Below, one piece after another: positions 38,417 to 44,401 of a DNA stretch of 64,000 nucleotides. Each line of letters begins with the position of its first letter. The stretch's first letter is position 1. Source of the DNA: a virus; the IMG/VR virus record IMGVR_UViG_3300005842_000010, positions 1 to 64,000 of that record; one strand, 5' to 3'. The notes below the pieces were generated by a model. The model had not been told where the DNA came from. It was given only the letters and a program-made list of their open reading frames with translations, and did no database searches. The translations under genes and the position numbers were made by a program.

Positions 38417-39003
38417 TCTACGACATCGAAATCATCAAGGCAGTGCCAGATCGCAAGTTTCCAAGGGAAGATGGCATCGAATACTGCTCGGGCTGGGAAG
38501 ATCACGCCAACATGGGAATCTCAGTAATCGGCTGCTACGATTACTCCGACGGGCGATATCGCGTTTTTTGCAAGGACAACTTCGTAGATTTCGTGCTGCT
38601 ATGTCACGACAAACAGCTTGTGTCATTCAATGGAATCGGATTCGACAATCGCGTGCTCAAGGCGTGCGGCGTAACGGATTTGATGGAAGGCACCAAGGAT
38701 GAGAAGCATTACGACATTCTGCGCGAGTTGTGGGTAGCTGACGGGCTCGGGCCTGATTTTGTTTACCCATCACACATCGGATTCGGATTGGATGCCGTTG
38801 GATCGGCCAACTTCGGACAACGCAAGACCGGACATGGCGCGCTCGCTCCGGTGGATTGGCAGCGTGGTAAAATCGGTTCAGTAATCGACTACTGCCTGAA
38901 TGACATCGCGATGACCAAGCGCTGCTTTGACCGAATCAGAGCCGCCGGCGGATTGCGCGATCCTCGCGACCCATCACGATTCATTCAAATGCGAACGCCA
39001 TGA
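38398..39003 (+). CDS. DnaQ/RNase H-like 3'-5' exonuclease
   Basis: The start is set at ATG 38398 (MGRNCLIYDIEI), 19 nt inside the HNH gene end. Exonuclease motifs: IYDIEI (Exo I), VSFNGIGFDNRVLKACG (Exo II), VIDYCLNDIAMTKRC (Exo III, YxxxD). It resembles stand-alone PolB-type exonuclease domains of phage replication or recombination modules. Length 201 aa. Confidence 0.8.
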   Translation: MGRNCLIYDIEIIKAVPDRKFPREDGIEYCSGWEDHANMGISVIGCYDYSDGRYRVFCKDNFVDFVLLCHDKQLVSFNGIGFDNRVLKACGVTDLMEGTKDEKHYDILRELWVADGLGPDFVYPSHIGFGLDAVGSANFGQRKTGHGALAPVDWQRGKIGSVIDYCLNDIAMTKRCFDRIRAAGGLRDPRDPSRFIQMRTP

Positions 39004-39695
39004 AACGATTCGACTGCGTACAAGGCTCGGCAGAATGGTTGAGCCTCAGATCGTGTATTCCCACCGCCTCAGAGTTCGATAACATCATCAGTCCAACTTT
39101 CGAGATCAGGAAAGGGCAAACCCCGGCAACTTATCTTTCACAAAAGCTGGCCGAAATCTGGCTTGGTGGCCCACTGCTCTCGTTCGGCGCATGGGCCACC
39201 GATCAGGGCACCATACTGCAGGACGAGGCGATACCATGGTTTGAATTCGAGTATGGATGCAAGGTTGATCGCGTCGGGTTCATTACAAACGATGCCGGAA
39301 CTGTTGGCTGCTCACCTGACGGACTGCTAGACGCCGAGACCGGGCTCGAAATTAAATGTTTACAGCCCGTGCATCATGTTTCCGTTCTCTTGAACGGCGA
39401 ACTCCCAAAAGACTTCTCGGCCCAGGTTCACGGGAGCATGTACGTCACCGGTTTTCCGAAATGGAAACTCTGCTGTTACCGGCGCCGATTTCCTCCGTTG
39501 ATTATCACTGTCCATCGCGATGAGGAGATCATTTCCAAAATCGATGAGGCTGTGGTGCTGTTCCTCGACAAGCTAAAGCGCAGTATGGATTACCTGATCG
39601 AACTGAACGGCGGAGAGCCTCCGCGTAAACCCGAGCAATCTCCGGGCAAAGTCAAATTCTCCTGGGAGAGCGATCCTGATGACGTCCCCCATTAA
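39000..39695 (+). CDS. YqaJ-type viral recombinase exonuclease
   Basis: FDCVQGSAEWLSLRSCIPTA, then SEFDNIIS, then GTVGCSPDGLLDAETGLEIK with the D-x(n)-ExK metal site, and SAQVHGSMYVTG. It is a 5'-3' alkaline exonuclease of the lambda-Exo/PD-(D/E)XK type and pairs with the ERF annealing protein. Starts by ATGA overlap. Confidence 0.88.
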   Translation: MKRFDCVQGSAEWLSLRSCIPTASEFDNIISPTFEIRKGQTPATYLSQKLAEIWLGGPLLSFGAWATDQGTILQDEAIPWFEFEYGCKVDRVGFITNDAGTVGCSPDGLLDAETGLEIKCLQPVHHVSVLLNGELPKDFSAQVHGSMYVTGFPKWKLCCYRRRFPPLIITVHRDEEIISKIDEAVVLFLDKLKRSMDYLIELNGGEPPRKPEQSPGKVKFSWESDPDDVPH

Positions 39696-39737: not shown

Positions 39738-40022
39738 ATGATCGAAAAGACACACGCCTTTCGTGTAGGCGATTTAACCTTCGGCACTCTAATTGAGGCC
39801 CAGGAGCACGAAATCACTTGCATCATCTCGGCTGTTCCTGGTTGGAACGACAAAGAGCAGCAGAAGCAGGTCGCGTCGGTAATCGTCGCGGCAAGCGTAA
39901 AAATCGTGGACGTTCTAAAAACTGGTCCACGCAGTCATGTGCGTGCTCGCAAGATAAACGGCGGAACTCGCAAGGCCCGAGCGCCTAAACCAGTTGTCGA
40001 ATCTGGAAAGGTGGCGGCATGA
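39738..40022 (+). CDS. Hypothetical protein, 94 aa
   Basis: Helical centre (EQQKQVASVIVAASVKIVDV) and a basic C-terminal tail (RKINGGTRKARAPKP). It overlaps the SbcC-like gene by 4 nt and may be an accessory of the recombination module. Not recognised. Confidence 0.55.
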   Translation: MIEKTHAFRVGDLTFGTLIEAQEHEITCIISAVPGWNDKEQQKQVASVIVAASVKIVDVLKTGPRSHVRARKINGGTRKARAPKPVVESGKVAA

Positions 40023-41377
40023 AGATCCTCTCGCTTTCCTCGGAAAATATAAAACGTTTAAGTTGTATCGAGTTAACCCTCGGCGACAAAGGCAATCTCG
40101 TCATCGTCTCCGGAAACAACGAACAAGGAAAATCGTCGCTTTTAGATTCGATTGAGATGACTTTGCATGGTGGCGCGAGCATCCCGCCCAAACCCGTTCG
40201 TCGGGGCCAAGACAAGGCAACAGTCGAAATGACTCTCGGCAACATCGGTTTGCCTGAGTTGACGGTTAAGCGCGTCATCACGGCGACCGGCGGCGGCTCT
40301 TTGGTCGTCACGAACAAGGACGGCACGCGCATGAGCTCGCCCCAGTCGGTTCTTGATGCGCTCGTCGGCAAGCTTAGCTTCGATCCGCTCGCATTCGCGA
40401 AGATGAAGCCGGCGGAGCGTTCGGAAACCATCCGCCAACTGCTCGGGTTGAATTTCACCCAACAAGACAAAGATCACGAAGCACTGTTCAACCAGCGCAC
40501 TGAGGTAAATCGTCGCGTGAAGGCGAAACAGGCGATGCTGGCTTCCAATCCGCGCCACCAGGGCGTTCCGAAAGAGGAACAATCCACGGCTGTAATCCTG
40601 GCAGAGCAGGAGAAGGCGACAAAAGTGAATAATGCCAACGATCAGGTTCGTAGGCGCGTTTCTGAGTTGAAAATCGCATCCCAACATCATGCGAACATGG
40701 CAAAGGACCATAAGTCCGCCATTGAACAGACAGCCGTTGAGATTGCACGACTCAAGGAAAAGCTAAATCGCCAGAATGAGGCATTCGATATGTGCGTGAC
40801 AAATGCCGAGAAGGAACTTGAGGCTTCGAAAACCGCGCAGGCTGAGGCTGACGCCTTAATCGACATTGACACCTCAGTTTTTCGCACGCTCATCAATGAG
40901 GCTGAGGCTACCAATTCCAAGATCCGAAAAAACAAGGAGATCGACAAAATCGAGTCCGAATTCAAAGAGGCTTCGAAAGAGGCGGACTCTCTCACGCGCA
41001 AGCTGGATGCAATCGATCGTTTCAAACGTGATGCCATCGCGGCCGCCAATTTCCCCGTGCCAGGCATGGGCCTCGGCTATGCTGGCGAGGTGTTGATCGA
41101 CGGGCTTCCGTTCGAGCAGGCCTCCACGAAGGGCCAGCTCATGGCCTCGCTCGCGATGGGTGCCGCGCTCAATCCGAAGCTGCGCGTGATGCTTGTCCGG
41201 AGCGGGAACGATCTGGACGATAAGGCTCTCGTCGTCCTGGCTGACTGGGCCAAGGACAAAGATTATCAAATCTGGTTGGAAAAAATTCATGGCGGAGGTA
41301 AGGCTGCGATTATCATAGAAGACGGGCACGCAGTTGAGCCTGTTATCGAACAAACGCCAGAGTTAATCCCGCAGTAA
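40019..41377 (+). CDS. SbcC/RecF-type ATPase
   Basis: Walker A GNNEQGKSSLLDSIEM (residues 32-47), a long coiled coil (about 150-340), and a C-terminal ATPase half with STKGQLMASLAMGAALNPK, then RVMLVRSGNDLDDKALVVLA in the Walker B place. Walker B has Ser-Gly-Asn where Asp-Glu is usual, as in other short phage SMC-like proteins. It probably works with the exonuclease genes upstream. Confidence 0.85.
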   Translation: MKILSLSSENIKRLSCIELTLGDKGNLVIVSGNNEQGKSSLLDSIEMTLHGGASIPPKPVRRGQDKATVEMTLGNIGLPELTVKRVITATGGGSLVVTNKDGTRMSSPQSVLDALVGKLSFDPLAFAKMKPAERSETIRQLLGLNFTQQDKDHEALFNQRTEVNRRVKAKQAMLASNPRHQGVPKEEQSTAVILAEQEKATKVNNANDQVRRRVSELKIASQHHANMAKDHKSAIEQTAVEIARLKEKLNRQNEAFDMCVTNAEKELEASKTAQAEADALIDIDTSVFRTLINEAEATNSKIRKNKEIDKIESEFKEASKEADSLTRKLDAIDRFKRDAIAAANFPVPGMGLGYAGEVLIDGLPFEQASTKGQLMASLAMGAALNPKLRVMLVRSGNDLDDKALVVLADWAKDKDYQIWLEKIHGGGKAAIIIEDGHAVEPVIEQTPELIPQ

Positions 41378-41682: not shown

Positions 41683-42249
41683 TTGAGCGACAAACCGAAG
41701 TTTCCGCGAGACCAGGCCATGAGCGTAGCAAATGCGCTCGTGGCCTTGCTCCGTCCGTACGTCACTCAGATCGAGATTGCTGGAAGCCTGCGCCGCGGCA
41801 AGCCAGAAGTCTCAGACATCGAGATCCTTTTTGTGCCGGCCACACAAACCTCGCCCGACGGACTTTTCGACACACTCACCGTTGATCTGGCCGACGCCTA
41901 CATCGAATCGCTCTATAAAAGCGGCTTGATCGGCAAGCGGTTCAATTCCGCCGGCTACATCGCCGCCTGGGGACCTAAGAACAAGCTCGGAATCCATATT
42001 CCGAGCGGCATCCCAGTAGATTTCTTCGCGACAACAGCCGACAACTGGGCCGTCAGCCTCGTGATTCGCACCGGTTCACTCGAGACGAATCTCAAACTTA
42101 CTACCGGCGCACACAAGATGGGCCGCAGCCTTCACGCGTACGGTTCGGGCGTATCAATTCATGCGACGGGTGAGCAAATTAAATGCAACAGTGAGGAAGA
42201 TGTATTTCGGTGTTGCAATGTTCCATATTTACCACCAGAATTACGCTAA
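41683..42249 (+). CDS. Pol-beta-type nucleotidyltransferase (DNA polymerase X-like)
   Basis: The nucleotidyltransferase signature IEIAGSLRRGKPEVSDIEIL (residues 31-50) gives GSLRR and the metal site D-x-E. A later IPVDFFATTADNWAVSLVIR supplies the third acid. The start is TTG 41683 or ATG 41719. Such small phage enzymes may add or fill nucleotides in repair. Length 188 aa, far below cellular PolX, so only the palm-like domain is present. Confidence 0.8.
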   Translation: MSDKPKFPRDQAMSVANALVALLRPYVTQIEIAGSLRRGKPEVSDIEILFVPATQTSPDGLFDTLTVDLADAYIESLYKSGLIGKRFNSAGYIAAWGPKNKLGIHIPSGIPVDFFATTADNWAVSLVIRTGSLETNLKLTTGAHKMGRSLHAYGSGVSIHATGEQIKCNSEEDVFRCCNVPYLPPELR

Positions 42250-42893
42250 TGAAGCCCGTTAAATCAAGGTATGGCATGATGCTGGTTCTTCGCATTTTTA
42301 CTGTTAATGGGGAGAGGTGGTGCGCCTGTTGCTGTGATTGCGGAACCGAGAAAAGCGTAAGGTTGAGTGACCTTCGAACGCAAAGAATAGTTTCCTGTGG
42401 GTGTTATGGTAGGAAAAGGAGACATGAAAGAACTCGAACTCATGGGTATGCCGGATCTGGAAAATCCCGAACAACCGAATATCGCAGTTGGGCGATGATG
42501 AAGTCGAGGTGTTCAAACAAAAAGCTCAATACATGGAAGCACTACGGTGGACGTGGAATAAAGGTTTGTGATCGATGGATGAGATTTGAAAACTTCATCT
42601 CAGATATGGGGCCAAAACCCAGCCAGAAACATTGTATCGAAAGAAAGAATAACGACGGCGATTACACTCCAGACAATTGCCGGTGGGCTACAATGTTGGA
42701 ACAGTCACATAACACACGCCGCACACTTACTATCGATCACTGTGGCAGGACAATGACTGTCGCTGAATGGGCCAGGGAAACTGGAATCACAGTCCGAACT
42801 TTATATGACCGATATCACAAGGGGCTCCCATTATTCTCGAAATTAAACCTTTGCACCACCAGGTCACCAAGGAATATCCAAATTTGCAAATAG
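42249..42893 (+). CDS. Homing endonuclease-like protein with HTH
   Basis: The start is placed at ATG 42249 (TAATG overlap with the stop upstream). It has a C-x-x-C pair region (CACCCDCGTEKSVRLSDL, SCGCYG), then RTTEYRSWAMMKSRCSNKK, HYGGRGIKVCDRWMRFENF, and HCIERKNNDGDYTPDNCRWA, then an HTH (WARETGITVRTLYDRYHKG). This is the small phage HNH-like family with a DMGPKP..IERKNNDG..YTPDNCRWA core. Confidence 0.8.
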   Translation: MKPVKSRYGMMLVLRIFTVNGERWCACCCDCGTEKSVRLSDLRTQRIVSCGCYGRKRRHERTRTHGYAGSGKSRTTEYRSWAMMKSRCSNKKLNTWKHYGGRGIKVCDRWMRFENFISDMGPKPSQKHCIERKNNDGDYTPDNCRWATMLEQSHNTRRTLTIDHCGRTMTVAEWARETGITVRTLYDRYHKGLPLFSKLNLCTTRSPRNIQICK

Positions 42894-42964: not shown

Positions 42965-43108
42965 ATGTCACACTCTTTTGGCCTGCCGCTGAACGTGCGC
43001 GAATGCGTAGCGGCCTGGTTCTCCACCTGGCTTTGTTTCAGCGGGAGGCGGCGGGCCTTTTCTCTTCCCAACAATGAGCATCCGGATAATGTCGCAGGTA
43101 TGGTCTGA
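42965..43108 (+). CDS. Possible small ORF, 47 aa
   Basis: ATG at 42965 gives MSHSFGLPLNVRECVAAWFS, then TWLCFSGRRRAFSLPNNEHP. It overlaps the initiator start by 35 nt. It could be a leader peptide or chance. Confidence 0.25.
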   Translation: MSHSFGLPLNVRECVAAWFSTWLCFSGRRRAFSLPNNEHPDNVAGMV

Positions 43109-43766
43109 CTCAACAATTACCAAACAAGGTGAGCTGTTGGTAATGCTCGCTATAGCAGACTTCGCAAACGATCAAGGTGAGGCTTGGCCATCTGTTTCAA
43201 AACTGGCCGAAAAATCACGGTTAAGCGAGCGTGGAGTCCAATACATTCTATCTAAACTAAAGTCGTCCAGGCATTTATCTATTGAAGTAGGAGGTTCAGG
43301 ACCGAAAGATTCTAGCTTATATCGGGTAAGGGTGAAAGATTTGCACCCTAATCTCACTAAGGGTGAAAACTGTGACACGCTAAGGGTGCAATCTGAGGCG
43401 GTTAAGGGTGCAAACGGCGACAAAAAAGGGTGCAAAAGCTTTGCACCCGATCCGTCAGTACCCGTACAAGAGATCCGTCATAAAGATCCACCACTGGATT
43501 TGTCCGTGGAATTTCCTCCTGGATTTCCAAAGTCTGATAAAGAAGCACAGGCTTCGGCGTGTACTATCGGATGCCCTGCTGATTTTGTTTCGGCAACGTG
43601 GAACCATGCAGCGGGAAGGGGTGGTAGGGATAGTAAAGACGTTCCGATCAGGTCATGGAGACACCATCTTCAAGCGGCCTGGCAATTTCAGCGCGGGAGG
43701 GACGGTGCGGGAAAAACTCCAGAAAAAAACCAACTTCAGGAAAGAATTGAGGTTAAAAGCCTATGA
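43074..43766 (+). CDS. Replication initiator (O-like, HTH_36)
   Basis: Residues about 17-65 form a winged helix of the HTH_36 type: TKQGELLVMLAIADFANDQG, then EAWPSVSKLAEKSRLSERGV, then QYILSKLK. The middle is encoded by an iteron array, as in lambda O where the origin lies in the initiator gene. The C-terminal part ends SWRHHLQAAWQFQRGR, typical of phage replication proteins that contact the loader. A second ATG at 43089 is possible. The helicase loader gene follows by 4-nt overlap. Confidence 0.82.
   Translation: MSIRIMSQVWSDSTITKQGELLVMLAIADFANDQGEAWPSVSKLAEKSRLSERGVQYILSKLKSSRHLSIEVGGSGPKDSSLYRVRVKDLHPNLTKGENCDTLRVQSEAVKGANGDKKGCKSFAPDPSVPVQEIRHKDPPLDLSVEFPPGFPKSDKEAQASACTIGCPADFVSATWNHAAGRGGRDSKDVPIRSWRHHLQAAWQFQRGRDGAGKTPEKNQLQERIEVKSL
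43327..43448 (+). repeat. Iteron array, putative replication origin
   Basis: Seven copies of TAAGGGTGMAA: direct at 43327, 43358, 43381, 43403 and 43425, and inverted at 43341-43351 and 43440-43448. Three successive spacings are 23, 22 and 22 nt, two helical turns. The last direct and inverted copies form a perfect palindrome with 9-nt arms (GGGTGCAAA-AGC-TTTGCACCC). The array lies inside the initiator gene. Confidence 0.85.
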
Positions 43767-44401
43767 CGGAAGAGTTTCAAGAGCGAGAATTCAAAATTAA
43801 GACCATTTCAAACGAAGAGTATGATCGCAGGGAGGCTGAGAGAAAAGCAATAGACGATAAGTTTGAAATTGACGAAATCCGAAGGAAATGGAACTGCCCA
43901 CTGAGACAGGTTTCTTGTAAGCCGATAGCATCAGGAGAATGGGGAGAAAAGCTTGAAGTTCTAAAATCAAAGCTTGGGACTGGAATGATCGTTGCGCTTA
44001 CCGGCGGAAGAGGCAATGGAAAGACACAGCTCGGAGTAGAGATTATGAAGATAGTCTCAGCCTCCTTAGAGAAGTGTTATTTTTTCACCGCTACCGAGTT
44101 CTTCATGCTGATAAAATCGACCTATAAGAATGATGCAACTAGAAATGAGGCTCAGATATTGAGCGATCTTCGAAAATTCAAACTGCTGGTGATTGATGAA
44201 ATCGGGAAAAGATCAGAAAGCCAGTGGGAAAATAACCTTCTATTTGAATTGATAAATAAACGGTACGGCGACATGACGGACACTCTCATAATCGACAACC
44301 GGCAAAAAACTGACTTCATTGCGACTATTGGGCCGTCTCTCGCGAGCAGAATTAGCGAGACTGGAGGTATCATTGAATGCGGATGGGCATCTTTTCGATG
44401 A
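43763..44401 (+). CDS. DnaC-like helicase loader (AAA+)
   Basis: Walker A GGRGNGKTQ (residues 81-89), Walker B KLLVIDEIGKRSE (about 137-149), and sensor/arginine finger region SLASRISETGGIIECG, the normal DnaC/IstB layout. It would load the host replicative helicase at the origin recognised by the initiator; no helicase gene is present in the window. Confidence 0.88.
   Translation: MTEEFQEREFKIKTISNEEYDRREAERKAIDDKFEIDEIRRKWNCPLRQVSCKPIASGEWGEKLEVLKSKLGTGMIVALTGGRGNGKTQLGVEIMKIVSASLEKCYFFTATEFFMLIKSTYKNDATRNEAQILSDLRKFKLLVIDEIGKRSESQWENNLLFELINKRYGDMTDTLIIDNRQKTDFIATIGPSLASRISETGGIIECGWASFR

Follow-up and report, generated by a model that had tools for sequence, protein, structure and literature searches.

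An iteron array inside an HTH_36 initiator gene as a probable phage replication origin

The window analyzed here, a 64,000-base stretch of viral DNA (bases 1 to 64000 of a 79,434-base virus record), carries seven copies of a GGGTGMAA repeat inside the gene of a replication initiator. We interpret this array, with a probability of about 0.88, as a theta-type phage replication origin located in the part of the initiator gene that encodes a disordered linker, a reading in which the binding, melting, and loading steps and the origin activity are inferred. It builds on the repeats, a constraint acting on them at the DNA level, their presence across the initiator family, a covariation between recognition helix and iteron in relatives, and the position and strand of a second repeat element, all of which were computed. 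Such origins have so far been worked out in few models (lambda, Stx phages, and SPP1), and the array design proved legible from sequence across many phage families whose initiator is unlike that of lambda, so that origins should become predictable in prophages and metagenomic phages.

The genes concerned are the following.

43074 to 43766, plus strand: initiator gene, 230 aa (HTH_36; PHROG 1032, 391, 270, and 8540, replication initiation; AlphaFold model)
43224 to 43265, plus strand: codons of the predicted recognition helix, about residues 51 to 64 (SERGVQYILSKLKS), placed by alignment and model; candidate iteron reader
43763 to 44401, plus strand: DnaC-like helicase loader gene, 212 aa, overlapping the initiator stop

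The initiator has an N-terminal HTH_36 domain (PF13730; E value of 2.6e-9, 37.2 bits against a curated cutoff of 25) and matches phrog_1032, "replication initiation protein" (E value of 2.6e-16), as well as phrog 391, "replication initiation O-like." The next gene product matches phrog_50, DnaC-like helicase loader (E value of 3.5e-31), and IstB_IS21 (E value of 1.7e-11). Domain, PHROG match, and adjoining helicase loader together place the protein in the HTH_36 phage replication-initiation family, and the initial annotation was thus right to call it an O-like initiator next to a DnaC-like loader. The lambda O models PF04492 and TIGR01610 gave no match to the initiator at an E value of 0.1 in Pfam and NCBIfam, whereas lambda O itself, used as a control, matched them at 5.7e-36 and 5.4e-39. 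The loader is likewise DnaC-like and not of the lambda P type (PF06992). In the AlphaFold model, a winged helix is confidently predicted at the N terminus (aa 1 to 86, pLDDT mostly above 90) and the C-terminal part is small and helical; the linker encoded by the repeats (about aa 87 to 155) is modeled with low confidence, which is consistent with disorder. Comparison of folds returned only generic winged-helix matches for residues 2 to 90 (Z up to 9.7), uninformative as to function. No match was obtained for the initiator in a PDB sequence search or for the array region in a megablast search against phages, and a search with P0001 as the sole query protein gave one relative, where we did not see the motif.

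Several neighbors of the initiator gene deserve mention. An HNH endonuclease gene (42210 to 42893) lies directly upstream and overlaps the preceding gene; it possibly encodes a homing endonuclease inserted beside the origin. The stretch from 41683 to 42249 encodes a small protein that matches the thumb and palm of DNA polymerase beta but no PHROG. For a phage replication module, such a pol-beta-like nucleotidyltransferase is unusual. Further upstream is an SbcC/Rad50-like ATPase gene (40019 to 41377; phrog_1499, function unknown, E value of 1.2e-82), near which lies a YqaJ exonuclease gene (39000 to 39695).

We then examined the array itself, which had been described as seven copies, five direct and two inverted, of TAAGGGTGMAA. 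The GGGTGMAA core indeed occurs seven times in the initiator gene, between 43327 and 43448.

43327 to 43337, plus strand: iteron 1, TAAGGGTGAAA, codon phase 1
43341 to 43351, minus strand: iteron 2, inverted, TTAGGGTGCAA, one mismatch; pairs with iteron 1 (GGGTGAAA-GA-TTTGCACCC)
43358 to 43368, plus strand: iteron 3, TAAGGGTGAAA, codon phase 2
43381 to 43391, plus strand: iteron 4, TAAGGGTGCAA, codon phase 1, step of 23 nt
43403 to 43413, plus strand: iteron 5, TAAGGGTGCAA, codon phase 2, step of 22 nt
43425 to 43435, plus strand: iteron 6, AAAGGGTGCAA, one mismatch to the 11-mer, codon phase 0, step of 22 nt
43441 to 43448, minus strand: iteron 7, inverted core GGGTGCAA, 8-bp core only (three mismatches in the full 11-mer register)
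43428 to 43448, strandless: terminal palindrome GGGTGCAAA-AGC-TTTGCACCC, made by iterons 6 and 7

The full 11-mer is exact in four direct copies, while the fifth direct copy and both inverted copies carry mismatches. The proposed steps of 22 to 23 nt apply to the last four direct copies (23, 22, and 22 nt), the first step being 31 nt, and the perfect palindrome with 9-nt arms is present at the array end (43428 to 43448). Every exact copy of the motif in the 64-kb window sits inside the array; when up to two mismatches are allowed, the window as a whole contains no more matches than chance would give (24 versus 24.9 expected). Read on the minus strand (43448 to 43428), the palindrome followed by T6 scores as an intrinsic terminator; the scan gave such scores no more often than chance, and this one is probably incidental.

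Synonymous-codon shuffles of the initiator gene retained a mean of 0.48 cores, and none of 5,000 reached the 7 observed. Since the direct copies occupy all three codon phases (1, 2, 1, 2, and 0), the constraint acts on DNA and not on protein. With at least three direct repeats, steps of about two helical turns, and DNA-level constraint, the array resembles the intragenic iteron origins of the lambda type in its layout. We considered that a Lys/Gly-rich linker might be the primary feature and the DNA pattern its by-product, as the linker is KGAN-KGCK-like and many relatives have repeated KGA/KGC units. The earlier description of the coding sequence as Lys/Gly-rich because of the repeats is only partly apt: the seven copies read RVK, LHP, KGE, LRV, KGA, KGC, and FAP, which arise from different frames. 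Copies in three frames and on both strands, in numbers far above those left by protein-preserving shuffles and in a linker of low predicted structural confidence, argue against a protein-level repeat; the frame and shuffle tests rule it out as the explanation of the array, and the probability we leave to it is negligible.

The initial annotation had staked its proposal on conservation of the repeats in homologues, and they are kept at the DNA level in Bordetella phage vB_BbrS_PHB09 and in 22 open reading frames (ORFs) of the window's clade. The protein O gene of PHB09 (MN103401) shows the array architecture of the window, with a AAAGGGTGCAA array at 21- to 22-nt steps in the linker, a terminal inverted copy, and GAACCATCA repeats after the array like the second element of the window (see below); its host group is different, and the aligned portions of the two proteins are 33% identical. 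The 22 initiator ORFs, from a sample of the clade drawn independently of the motif, contain 4 to 8 cores each, versus 0.2 to 0.8 expected; six more ORFs of this sample, without copies, are probably wrong-frame or neighboring ORFs. When viral contigs were scanned for sets of three GGGTGMAA cores spaced by 20 to 24 nt, at least 120 stretches were found, where we estimate that chance would give about 0.1 (assuming ∼6e10 bases and even base use). Among the matches listed, most fall in replication-initiation genes: 43 of the 51 ORFs tested contain HTH_36 and 42 match phrog_270. As in the window, many arrays of its dialect close with an inverted copy 11 to 14 nt past the last direct core; over arrays of every kind, 25 of the 58 non-redundant ones do so. 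Two relatives, L178 and L135, have unusually long arrays of 10 to 11 copies with alternating orientation. Arrays resembling GGGTGCAA also occur in more distant HTH initiator genes with a GGAKYAQGCKICT linker (L034, L105, and L075; TAGGGGTGCAAA arrays), so the word may extend past the main family.

To look beyond the clade, we used a family sample from viral contigs and bacterial genomes that had been drawn by the HTH peptide alone, without use of the motif; closer subsets of a 26-row HTH alignment served for finding related loci. Among 71 non-redundant complete initiator genes, one per family, 61 have linker words repeated above the synonymous null (p ≤ 0.01) and 10 do not. The top word has at least three copies in 62 families, and for 55 of these, more than one frame is used by the copies. 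The iteron words vary by clade, forming "dialects" such as CTGCGGGGG, GCTTCGGGG, TGCCGGGG, GTTCAGGG, and GGGTGAAC, among others. DnaA boxes (TTATNCACA) were found in the linkers of 4 of 165 genes and are thus no shared feature. Judged by sequence, the intragenic iteron layout recurs across a large phage group separate from lambda.

The window had been said to have the layout of lambda with a different sequence and different proteins, and comparison with lambda (NC_001416) bore this out. Ori-lambda has four iterons in the middle of gene O (39034 to 39118) at steps of 20, 24, and 23 nt, about two turns as in the window, and in both cases the loader gene overlaps the initiator stop. By contrast, the iteron sequences differ, lambda O and its loader P belong to PF04492/TIGR01610 and PF06992 where the window has HTH_36 and DnaC-like proteins, and a 78% A+T tract (A-rich) stands in lambda where the HTH_36 family has GAACCRTCA repeats, which lambda lacks. 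Stx phages (P27 and 933W) also have intragenic iterons, and protein-neutral changes to these abolished plasmid transformation (PMC7466680); they differ in their lambda-type O protein and their number of iterons, six. In Bacillus phage SPP1, gp38 binds direct repeats inside its own gene (oriL), and gp39 is the loader; as described, its initiator, its repeats, and its A+T-rich unwinding element set it apart from the window (PMC6316719). Lambda-type intragenic origins are therefore already known, and repeats have been noted before in a relative, Pseudomonas phage MD8, in a passing mention in the searched text of PMC8508860 that the O-like gene holds repeats and that lambda-like replication is proposed. 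The O-like gene of MD8/TC7 shares the initiator family of the window. TC7, which was found among our protein matches, has CCCCCGCAG iterons, a dialect different from that of the window, followed by GAACC repeats. The iteron word itself appeared in one phage paper, where it is an att site.

We also asked whether the repeats could be an operator through which the HTH protein represses or times its own operon, with the origin elsewhere. Winged-helix domains are mostly those of transcription factors, and the iterons of many plasmids also serve autoregulation. However, the array lies about 250 nt into the gene and not at a promoter (a promoter scan there gave chance scores), its layout and adjoining loader are those of the characterized intragenic origins of lambda, Stx phages, and SPP1, and its conservation goes with replication-initiation families. 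We therefore regard the operator as unlikely and an origin as the better reading of the array.

When words in 165 families were compared with synonymous shuffles, the strongest excess was seen for those of a second element, GAACCRTCA, and not for those of any iteron. This element, absent from the initial annotation, occurs in 2 to 4 copies, mostly at 10- to 12-nt steps. Its copies stand only on the coding strand, immediately 3′ of the array, and do so irrespective of the dialect of the iterons. ACCGTCA is present in 67 genes versus 14.1 expected. In 110 motif-independent families, we counted 63 GAACCRTCA pairs at 9 to 13 nt, versus 4.7 expected, and 44 of the 63 were cross-frame, versus 2.5 expected and a maximum of 7 in 100 shuffle sets; opposite-strand pairs were found in no gene of the 165 families. 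Relative to the array, 89 copies lie after it, 8 inside, and 1 before, with an onset typically 13 to 25 nt past the last iteron word. When we scanned for three copies of GAACCRTCA, 55 of 94 non-redundant ORFs matched the HTH model directly, after very different iterons; several of the other ORFs seem to come from such initiator genes, truncated or read in a wrong frame, and the rest are mostly simple repeats. The element recurs in the linkers of many relatives (for example, L129, L131, L209, L003, and L186), and the conserved peptide EPSRTIKEPS arises because this DNA repeat is read in shifting frames. In the window, the second element is degenerate:

43449 to 43457, plus strand: copy 1, GATCCGTCA, codon phase 0 (family consensus, GAACCRTCA)
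43472 to 43480, plus strand: copy 2, GATCCGTCA, codon phase 2
43485 to 43493, plus strand: copy 3, GATCCACCA, codon phase 0, step of 13 nt

Taken alone, these copies are moderately significant, as 36 of 5,000 shuffles reach them. The A+T content right after the array is about 47 to 53%; GATCCGTCA-type repeats are found there instead of an A+T-rich unwinding region. The element stays constant while the iterons vary, so its reader is probably conserved, for example a protein of the host or some invariant component of the replication machinery. GAACCRTCA may thus be an undescribed, family-wide origin element, strand specific, spaced by one turn, placed one to two turns past the last iteron and recognized by a conserved reader, a proposal to which we give about even odds. 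Candidate readers under this proposal would be a host protein, the loader, or the initiator contacting the melted strand (compare the DnaA-trio at oriC). If functional, the element would be a common unwinding or loading signal and would explain the otherwise puzzling EPSRTIKEPS string. We found no GAACC words and no description of GAACCRTCA in the literature searched, mostly outside subscription journals.

We propose that the winged-helix N terminus of the initiator would bind the GGGTGMAA iterons and that the inverted pair at the array end, with its close spacing, probably accommodates a dimer or serves to nucleate the complex. Once assembled, this complex would strain or melt the DNA just downstream of the array, where the GAACCRTCA-type repeats, at one-turn steps, may mark the place or the strand that is opened or loaded, and the DnaC-like product of the next gene would then load host DnaB. 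Alternatively, the array could be a negative element that binds the initiator for titration or copy control, with unwinding at a separate origin. In iteron plasmids, additional iteron arrays serve in handcuffing, and SPP1 has two origins, one of them inside gene 38 (PMC6316719). Against this, the 64-kb window shows no second array, and the second element and the loader gene lie directly downstream of the array; we judge a negative role very unlikely and retain the array as the probable origin. The GC skew, proposed earlier as a check, gave a mixed answer: at fourfold sites of plus-strand genes it changes sign at the array, from −0.20 to +0.06, a weak local agreement with an origin there, but the cumulative minimum falls at the end of the record, away from the array.

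We then compared the recognition helices with the iterons of relatives carrying the TKCNGGG class of iterons, a class to which the window dialect (AAGGGTGCAA) does not belong. Helices of the form S/T-E/D-R-x-x-Gln accompany iterons of the type TKC-G-GGG, and where Arg takes the place of this Gln, the iterons are of the type TKC-C-GGG or TKC-A-GGG. The pattern was spotted by eye in the discovery set, in which TKC-G-GGG accompanied Gln in 22 of 23 cases and Arg in 0 of 6 (p = 1.5e-5). The holdout, consisting of loci fetched afterwards from clades picked for holding both residues and non-redundant at 70% identity, gave 8 of 8 and 0 of 6 (p = 3.3e-4). There was one Gln exception, L202. On a tree of short domains, poorly resolved and built without the Gln/Arg column, the helix residue switches six times. 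Supported branches carry three independent pairs, in which the base of the iteron follows in 2.8 of 3 on average; independent switches are few, and a sign test with three cannot reach 0.05. The simplest case is a sister pair, L129 (TERGAQKI, TTCGGGG) and L209 (TERGARKI, TTCCGGG). This covariation in relatives supports the view that the initiator reads the repeats in its own gene. No description of helix-iteron covariation was found in the literature searched, mostly outside subscription journals, and the Gln/Arg switch offers a concrete and cheap handle on DNA recognition by HTH_36 phage initiators. If the proposed role of GAACCRTCA is true, this element and the Gln/Arg iteron code would make up a modular, readable origin grammar for many phages and prophages.

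Among the bacterial genomes, L209 is also the relative whose HTH matches best, and it comes from a Verrucomicrobiota record (a Verrucomicrobiales metagenome-assembled genome; compare L225 and L232), which hints at the host phylum of the window phage.
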